Part shown: in pieces, positions 41,846 to 52,031 of the stretch
Position numbering within the stretch: position 1 is the first letter of the stretch
Layout: each line of letters begins with the position of its first letter
Assembly: GCA_008501765.1 (NCBI GenBank)
Contig: QQUE01000008.1
Location: 124,001 to 188,000, forward strand
Length of the DNA: 64,000 bases
Reading direction: 5' to 3'
Origin: Calditrichota bacterium
GTDB lineage: Bacteria; Zhuqueibacterota; Zhuqueibacteria; Zhuqueibacterales; Geothermadaptataceae
Position numbers and translations under genes: made by a program
The notes under the pieces: model-generated
What the model was told of the DNA's origin: nothing
What the model saw: only the letters and a program-made list of their open reading frames with translations
The model's database searches: none

Positions 41846-42931
41846 ATGCCAGAAAATGAAAATGGCCAGGAAAAAACAGAAGACGCGTCCCCGCGACGTC
41901 GAAATCAGGCACGAGAAAAAGGCCAGGTAGCCAAGAGTGTCGAGTTAAACTCGGCAATTATCATCCTTGGTGGCAGCAGTTTTTTATACCTTAGCGGCGG
42001 TAAAATCCTGCAGCGGATGATCGAACTTTTTAAATCATATTTGCTCGGAGCCGCCTCCACCGAAATGTCAAGTGAAGAAATTCGACCTATGTTTATTAAA
42101 ATATCTGCTCAAGTTTTAGAACTGCTCGGACCCTTTTTATTCTTCATTGTCGTTCTCGGACTTTCGGTAAATATATCGCAGGTAGGGCTATTGTGGGCGC
42201 CAAAATCACTGCAGCCAACCTTTGACAAGTTCAATATCATTTCAGGAATAAAACGGCTGGTTGCGGTAAAATCTCTGGTCGAACTGGTAAAAAATATTAT
42301 TCGACTCATAATCATCGGCTCGATTATTTATTCGGTTTTAAGCTCAAAATACGAAACTTTTTTTCTGCTGATGAACGAGACCAGCGGCCATTTGATGGGA
42401 TTTATCGGTGATGTTGCATTCGAAATTCTTTTGAAAGTTGGATTAGCCATGCTGGTATTGGCTTTGGCTGATTATGCATATCAGAAATTCGATTTCGAGA
42501 AAAACTTGAAAATGACCAAGCAGGAAGTAAAAGAAGAAAACAAAATGATGGAAGGCAGCCCGCAAATCAAAGCCAAAATTAGAGAAATCCAGCGTGCGAT
42601 GTCACGCAAACGCATGATGGCCGCTGTTCCGGAAGCGGATGTTGTGATAACAAACCCGATTCACTATGCAGTGGCTTTGAAATACGAACCCGGGAAAAGC
42701 AATGCCCCGATGATTGTCGCGAAAGGCGAACGGAAATTTGCGCTCAAAATCAAAGAAGTGGCCATCGAACACGATGTGCCGATCGTTGAGGATCCTCCTT
42801 TGGCGCGGCTGCTGTTTCATCAGGGCGAATTGAACCGTGAAATTCCAGTTGATGCATTTGAAGCTGTGGCAGAAGTTTTGAGCTACATCTATCAATTACA
42901 AAATAAAAATTTGCAGGATAGGCTGAACTAA
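41846..42931 (+). CDS. flhB: flagellar export switch protein FlhB
   Basis: Membrane protein that switches export from hook to filament substrates. N-terminal signature EKTEDASPRRRNQAREKGQV, four transmembrane helices (about 35-52, 92-112, 150-168, 188-210) and the cytoplasmic FlhBC domain. The self-cleavage motif reads Asn270-Pro-Ile-His273 instead of the usual NPTH. Length 361. It follows fliR by 3 nt and flhA by 1 nt. A second, short FlhBC-like gene lies at 51759. Confidence 0.96.
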   Translation: MPENENGQEKTEDASPRRRNQAREKGQVAKSVELNSAIIILGGSSFLYLSGGKILQRMIELFKSYLLGAASTEMSSEEIRPMFIKISAQVLELLGPFLFFIVVLGLSVNISQVGLLWAPKSLQPTFDKFNIISGIKRLVAVKSLVELVKNIIRLIIIGSIIYSVLSSKYETFFLLMNETSGHLMGFIGDVAFEILLKVGLAMLVLALADYAYQKFDFEKNLKMTKQEVKEENKMMEGSPQIKAKIREIQRAMSRKRMMAAVPEADVVITNPIHYAVALKYEPGKSNAPMIVAKGERKFALKIKEVAIEHDVPIVEDPPLARLLFHQGELNREIPVDAFEAVAEVLSYIYQLQNKNLQDRLN

Positions 42932-51010: not shown

Positions 51011-51697
51011 ATGAATATTCCTCAATCCAGCGATTTTTTATCATCTCCTGTCGCTGTGAAATATATTTCAAAAAAAGTGCTGGAAACACTTTTTCGCCCC
51101 GGCAGAAATTTGCGAGGGATTGTCACACGGGATTTGGGAGAGGGCAAGTTTGTATTTCGTGTTGCTAAATATAATTTGGTGGCAACATCCGTAAAATCTA
51201 TGGTTGTTGGTCAGCAAGTGAAGGTGATTGTTAAACAAAACAAGCCAAAACTTCATCTGCAAATTACACCGGAAACTTTGGAGAAAACAAGCGATGCTCC
51301 GATTCAGGAAAGAGTCTCAAAAGAGGAGACAACTGAACTGCCCCATCTGTATTTAAAAGGCTCGGAGGCGGAAATAATTGAAGAATTGCAAATTCAAGAC
51401 ACTGAACAAACTGAACAGCAGGAAAAAAATGGTGGCGTTGCTTTCATCCTGAGCATGATTTCGGAGCAGGCCGGACAAAGTAGATACCAGTTTAATCAGA
51501 CACCGGAATCACTGCATCTCGACATTTACACCGACAATTTTGGTTGGTTTCAAACTTTGCGTTCCGGATTAAATGAACTTTACCATATTCTGCAGACAAA
51601 TAATGAAAAACAGGTTTTTATAAATATCAGAATGGAAGCAGCGCAGAAATGCCCAGCACCTGCAACAAAATCCAATAATATCAACTTGAAAATATAG
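51011..51697 (+). CDS. FliK-like / YlqG-like protein
   Basis: 228 residues. An N-terminal strand-rich block (about 35-90): RGIVTRDLGEGKFVFRVAKYN, VGQQVKVIVKQNKPKLHLQI, like the OB-like N-terminal segments of FliK-related proteins. The C-terminal part (about 170-210) resembles the Flg_hook domain weakly: SLHLDIYTDNFGWFQTLRSG. Followed by the FlhB-C-like gene, a pairing known as ylqG-ylqH in Bacillus. Weak ribosome site. Family assignment is moderate. Confidence 0.7.
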   Translation: MNIPQSSDFLSSPVAVKYISKKVLETLFRPGRNLRGIVTRDLGEGKFVFRVAKYNLVATSVKSMVVGQQVKVIVKQNKPKLHLQITPETLEKTSDAPIQERVSKEETTELPHLYLKGSEAEIIEELQIQDTEQTEQQEKNGGVAFILSMISEQAGQSRYQFNQTPESLHLDIYTDNFGWFQTLRSGLNELYHILQTNNEKQVFINIRMEAAQKCPAPATKSNNINLKI

Positions 51698-51758
51698 TTC
51701 GAGTTAATAATCGGATAAGTATTGCCGAAAATAAACAGAAAGACCGGGAGACTGTGCA

Positions 51759-52031
51759 ATTACGAAAAAACAGAAAACCGCAGTAGCGCTATCCTACAAA
51801 CCCGGAAATAGTACAGCACCGAAGCTCGTTGCCAAAGGAAAAGGCGTTTTCGCAGACAAAATTTTAGAAATCGCCAGGGAATATAACATTGAGATTTGTG
51901 AAGAAAAGAAACTGGTTGAAGATTTGTTTCACCTTGATATCGAGCGTGAAATTCCAATTGAGCTTTATGACGCTGTAGCGGCTGTTCTGGCCTTTGTTTA
52001 TAATAAACAAACCGCGATGAAAATCAAATAA
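51759..52031 (+). CDS. FlhB C-terminal-domain paralogue (FlhX/YlqH-like), apparent ATT start
   Basis: A 90-residue protein aligned over its whole length with FlhB residues 274-355: TAVALSYKPGNSTAPKLVAKG against YAVALKYEPGKSNAPMIVAKG, and REIPIELYDAVAAVLAFVY against REIPVDAFEAVAEVLSYIY. It lacks membrane helices and the cleaved Asn-Pro. The frame is bounded upstream by TAA (51732-51734) with no ATG, GTG, TTG or CTG before residue 50 or so. ATT at 51759 has GGGAG exactly 8 nt upstream and is the best start. FlhX can replace the FlhB C-domain in Helicobacter. Confidence 0.88.
   Translation: MTKKQKTAVALSYKPGNSTAPKLVAKGKGVFADKILEIAREYNIEICEEKKLVEDLFHLDIEREIPIELYDAVAAVLAFVYNKQTAMKIK

Follow-up and report, generated by a model that had tools for sequence, protein, structure and literature searches.

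YlqH of Bacillus subtilis is a homologue of the FlhB C-terminus and belongs to the FlhX kind. Proteins of this kind, such as HP1575 of Helicobacter pylori and the flhB_rel family (TIGR00789), comprise the cytoplasmic domain of FlhB alone, do not contain the NPxH motif and are encoded in genomes that also encode a full FlhB. HP1575 is called a 'spare part' for the FlhB-C domain in the title of Wand et al. (2006), as cited in PMC3040844. Other described systems concern the way in which a frame is opened or kept. In E. coli, pcnB is the only gene apart from infC with a known AUU start (PMC9410913). The frame of tssM in Citrobacter rodentium is restored by slippage on a run of 11 A (PMC4256274), and many genomes show selection against slippage from runs of about nine A or T (PMC1088944). 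In E. coli, A_AAA_AAG is far more prone to ribosomal shifting than A_AAA_AAC (PMC5009743).

The window analyzed here is a stretch of 64,000 nt from contig QQUE01000008.1 of a Calditrichota bacterium (GCA_008501765.1). It contains a frame of 90 codons plus a TAA stop (52029-52031), which is separated by an intergenic stretch from the gene located upstream (Table 1). PF01312 (Pfam) matched residues 6-80 of the product, corresponding to profile positions 260-335 of 335 (1.7e-21), and TIGR00789 (NCBIfam) was matched over positions 2-81 of 84 (1.6e-26), with 92.3 bits, which did not reach the curated cut-off of that model (117.35). An unsupervised coding model placed a coding segment at 51756-52014 in the same frame. 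These results bear out the earlier note, in which the frame was taken for an FlhX-like paralogue of FlhB-C. The alignment with the FlhB cytoplasmic domain, which had been described as full-length, held for residues 6-80, but the first ~5 residues (ITKKQ) remained outside because the homology starts just past the NPxH cleavage site of FlhB. Judged from its sequence, the gene is genuine and, as a paralogue of the FlhB cytoplasmic domain, of the ordinary FlhX type.

Table 1. Features of the FlhB-C locus and of FlhB proper (positions are those of the window)
Feature	Position	Strand	Basis or remark
FlhB proper, 361 aa, NPIH at autocleavage position	41846-42931	+	PF01312 8.9e-125 over 8-348
Gene 5' of FlhB-C frame, in FliK-type position of relatives	51011-51697	+	Neighbourhood of homologous loci
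In-frame TAA 5' of FlhB-C frame	51732-51734	+	Read from sequence
GGGAG, Shine-Dalgarno-like; spacing to GTG 3 nt, to ATT 8, to ACG 11	51746-51750	+	Sequence
GTG CAA, equivalent to the Met-Gln start (NTG-CAR) of the family; out of the FlhB-C frame by one base	51754-51759	+	Comparison with orthologue starts
Short frame opened by GTG 51754, MQLRKNRKPQ, stop TAG 51784-51786	51754-51786	+	Sequence
FlhB-C paralogue frame (FlhX / flhB_rel type)	51759-52031	+	PF01312, TIGR00789, coding model
ATT, proposed start codon	51759-51761	+	8 nt past GGGAG; context score 4.69
ACG, possible near-cognate start	51762-51764	+	Context score 3.14; GGAG spacing 11
A6 run, likeliest site of one-base difference; with C 51771 = A_AAA_AAC in GTG frame	51765-51770	+	Sequence, orthologue comparison

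As in FlhX, the FlhB cytoplasmic domain stands alone in this product: the membrane part and the NPxH motif are absent, the translation begins past the NPxH position, and a full FlhB is encoded elsewhere in the genome. In FlhB proper, the autocleavage site reads NPIH, where NPTH is usual. The locus is syntenic with those of relatives. In homologous loci a FliK-type gene adjoins, a Flg_hook (PF02120) gene being located 5' of the FlhB-C homologue in two related loci (L005 and L067). The gene in this position in the window was matched by no Pfam profile, even with the threshold at E = 10, and its same-genus orthologue was 55% identical. By analogy with HP1575, the paralogue probably serves flagellar type III export as a separate partner of, or substitute for, the FlhB-C switch domain.

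In comparison with the orthologue of the same genus (G001), 20, 12 and 51 substitutions were counted at codon positions 1, 2 and 3, respectively, and dN was ~0.22-0.23 against a dS of ~1.7-3.8. By this pattern, the paralogue is apparently under purifying selection. No decay of the frame or relaxed selection was seen on this branch, identities to the outgroups being about equal for this genome and G001. In G002, another genome of this genus (the third, 67% complete), neither the paralogue nor the upstream gene was matched, and the downstream gene was matched at the paralogue level only. In eight genomes from another family of the same order (G007-G014), the FlhB-C query matched neither FlhB nor the paralogue; that family may therefore be without flagella.

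The unusual property of the frame is its start. The codons following the TAA at 51732-51734 are ACA GAA AGA CCG GGA GAC TGT GCA ATT ACG AAA AAA CAG, and no in-frame ATG, GTG or TTG is present between this TAA and the homology. The earlier note had proposed initiation at ATT 51759, and the letters on which it relied (the TAA, the first ten of these codons, the ATT, and GGGAG with a spacer of 8 nt) were all confirmed. The first canonical in-frame start is located 168 nt inside the coding segment, farther than in any other of the 1,408 coding segments scanned (2.0 Mb of the genome); a canonical start was missing by more than 105 nt in just one other segment, that of infC (138 nt). The note was also right that the gene would escape a standard gene caller.

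The starts of homologues point to a different origin of this situation. A total of 35 standalone FlhB-C frames were gathered, including that of the window, and in this assembly the latter differed from all of the others in lacking a canonical in-frame start. The other 34 all had one before the homology core (24 ATG, seven TTG and three GTG), and ATT was the start in none of them; the conserved ATT that had been suggested as a check was thus not observed. The five orthologues of the same family all start with NTG-CAR, encoding Met-Gln: TTG CAA in G001, ATG CAA in G004 and G006, and ATG CAG in G003 and G005. The G001 orthologue (L036) opens with TTG CAA AAA AGG AGG AAA CAA AAG ACC, and its protein starts MQKRRKQKTAVALSY. 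Just after its TTG start, within codons 2-5, the G001 orthologue (L077 / L036) also carries a near-perfect Shine-Dalgarno sequence, AAAAAAGGAGG, which has no in-frame start codon at a proper distance 3' of it.

A counterpart of the family start was found in the window one base out of frame. Positions 51754-51770 read GTG CAA TTA CGA AAA AA and would encode Met-Gln-Leu-Arg-Lys, which is followed by QKTAVALSY, but in the FlhB-C frame. By hand count, the distance from CAA to ACC is 20 nt in the window and 21 nt in G001. Over the opening 12 nt of the G001 start, seven bases agree with the window if a shift by one base is allowed, and five if it is not. The expected chance of an NTG-CAR in nearby out-of-frame positions is 1.2%. 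The out-of-frame MQLRKN scored 15 (BLOSUM62, summed by hand) against MQKRRK, the scripted figure for MQLRKK being 20, and out-of-frame leaders scoring at least 15 were found at only two of the 1,399 gene starts that were scored likewise in this genome (p ~0.001-0.002). The gapless in-frame reading of the leader against the G001 start scored 1; this alignment, chosen by MAFFT, was rejected as less likely because Met-Gln is lost in it. Taken together, the Met-Gln starts of the family, the lengths of 20 and 21 nt, the shifted matches and the peptide score indicate that GTG 51754 would be the inherited start and that one base is missing near the A6 run. Descent through a one-base indel, at or near positions 51765-51770, is accordingly regarded as highly likely. 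This is the frameshift that the earlier note had itself named as refuting an AUU start.

Such a frameshift by one base, with a conserved Met-Gln start in front of it, best explains the missing start of this otherwise ordinary gene. Under this explanation, translation would originally have begun at GTG 51754-CAA; the absence, in or close to the A6 run, of one base that the orthologues have would displace the GTG from the frame, with the result that ATT appears as the first codon. The missing base would be due to an error in the assembly or to a real deletion of recent date, and no dedicated AUU mechanism would be involved. We consider this simple account somewhat more probable than not, and have about the same slight preference for a working start other than AUU. 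The weights given to the readings of the start are our own judgement rather than computed values and concern one genome.

Whether the base is missing from the assembly or from the chromosome was considered by looking for similar cases. No frameshift was detected in 131 kb of coding sequence (175 genes) homologous to genes of two related genomes, in which 366 homopolymer runs of at least six were intact, giving a bound of roughly <2% of genes and <1% of runs. A scan with the coding model found no other frameshift candidate in 1.6 Mb of coding sequence; its sensitivity to simulated deletions was ~14% near starts and 8% elsewhere, so the scan alone is weak evidence and further cases are possible. 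Four candidate junctions were normal gene junctions on reading, and earlier candidate frameshifts vanished when the search was confined to the coding strand. A generally poor assembly is unsupported by either search. The assembly looks clean, which counts against misassembly as the cause of the missing base.

If the deletion is real, the ATT could have been put to use. In this account, a one-base deletion displaced the canonical start of the export-switch paralogue, which would now be translated from AUU behind a good Shine-Dalgarno sequence, conceivably at the low level suggested in the earlier note but still as a functional protein; we regard this as possible though clearly the less probable outcome, and as less likely still without a deletion. 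The context of ATT scored 4.69, which corresponds to the 75th percentile for true ATG starts (median 3.15), compared with 3.14, about the median, for ACG 51762 and 1.17 for GTG 51754. Among 497 genes, a Shine-Dalgarno core was present in 152 (~30%), and GGAG spacers clustered at 5-9 nt. The spacer of 8 nt before ATT is typical and occurred in nine genes, whereas the 3 nt before GTG 51754 occurred in none. Since only ~30% of genes have the core at all, GTG 51754 may still act as a start despite its spacing. The FlhB-C frame is intact and combines an ATT, proper Shine-Dalgarno spacing and the lack of a canonical in-frame start, as AUU genes (infC, pcnB) do.

The infC gene of this genome (L160, contig C14, about 162760-163263, minus strand) offers a useful AUU control. 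It has no ATG, GTG or TTG near its start, where ATT AGC AAG AAA AAA follows CAGGAG. Its family relatives G001, G004 and G006 share the position of this ATT, behind a Shine-Dalgarno-like stretch and within the common sequence ATT AGC AAR ARR. The ribosomes of these organisms therefore very probably use AUU. The FlhB-C start resembles that of infC in that its ATT follows GGAG and precedes a Lys-rich N-terminus, again with no canonical codon nearby. It differs in that its ATT occurs in this genome only and beside an out-of-frame canonical start, and in that the paralogue has no link to the initiation-fidelity feedback. AUU initiation keeps its share of probability because the codon could have taken over after the indel, given the good Shine-Dalgarno geometry and the infC example. 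Against it stand the absence of ATT starts from all homologues, the restriction of known AUU starts in E. coli to infC and pcnB, and the out-of-frame GTG-CAA, which is hard to account for without an indel; moreover, a near-cognate codon close to a G-rich stretch is not improbable by itself. The AUU start put forward in the earlier note is thus sustained in its Shine-Dalgarno geometry and in the presence of an infC ATT in the genome, but not in the comparison with homologues.

Recoding would retain GTG 51754 as the start, and the FlhB-C frame would be reached either by -1 shifting of the ribosome at A_AAA_AAC (51765-51771) or by RNA polymerase slippage on the A6 run. The phase of the heptamer is suitable, since a ribosome moving back one base out of the GTG frame would enter the FlhB-C frame exactly, and there is a resemblance to tssM, in which an A-run also lies just 5' of the frame break and the start and the body are in different frames. 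However, the run has six A instead of 11, below the length at which slippage is selected against, and neither conservation nor a stimulator was found for it. The heptamer is absent from all orthologues, is the less shift-prone form in E. coli, and is not rare in ordinary genes of this genome (78 in 217,223 codons). An RNA stimulator was sought downstream and rejected, folding being no better than that of shuffled sequences (z = +1.0). Of the features of a programmed -1 frameshift, only the in-phase heptamer was therefore present, while the downstream stimulator and the conservation of the site were lacking. Recoding at this start has little support and seems unlikely. Even less probable is a start at ACG 51762 or at another near-cognate codon: the context of ACG equals the median of true starts, but its GGAG spacing of 11 was found in only two genes and no homologue starts in this way.

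If the start is merely frameshifted, as is slightly preferred here, the matter is a small annotation problem, in which a conserved flagellar gene is overlooked or shortened by gene callers. Should AUU in fact be the working start, the paralogue would be a rare case of a chromosomal AUU start beyond infC and pcnB, in a gene for a flagellar export-switch component, and would provide a clean natural example of start relocation, in which a near-cognate codon takes over after an indel.
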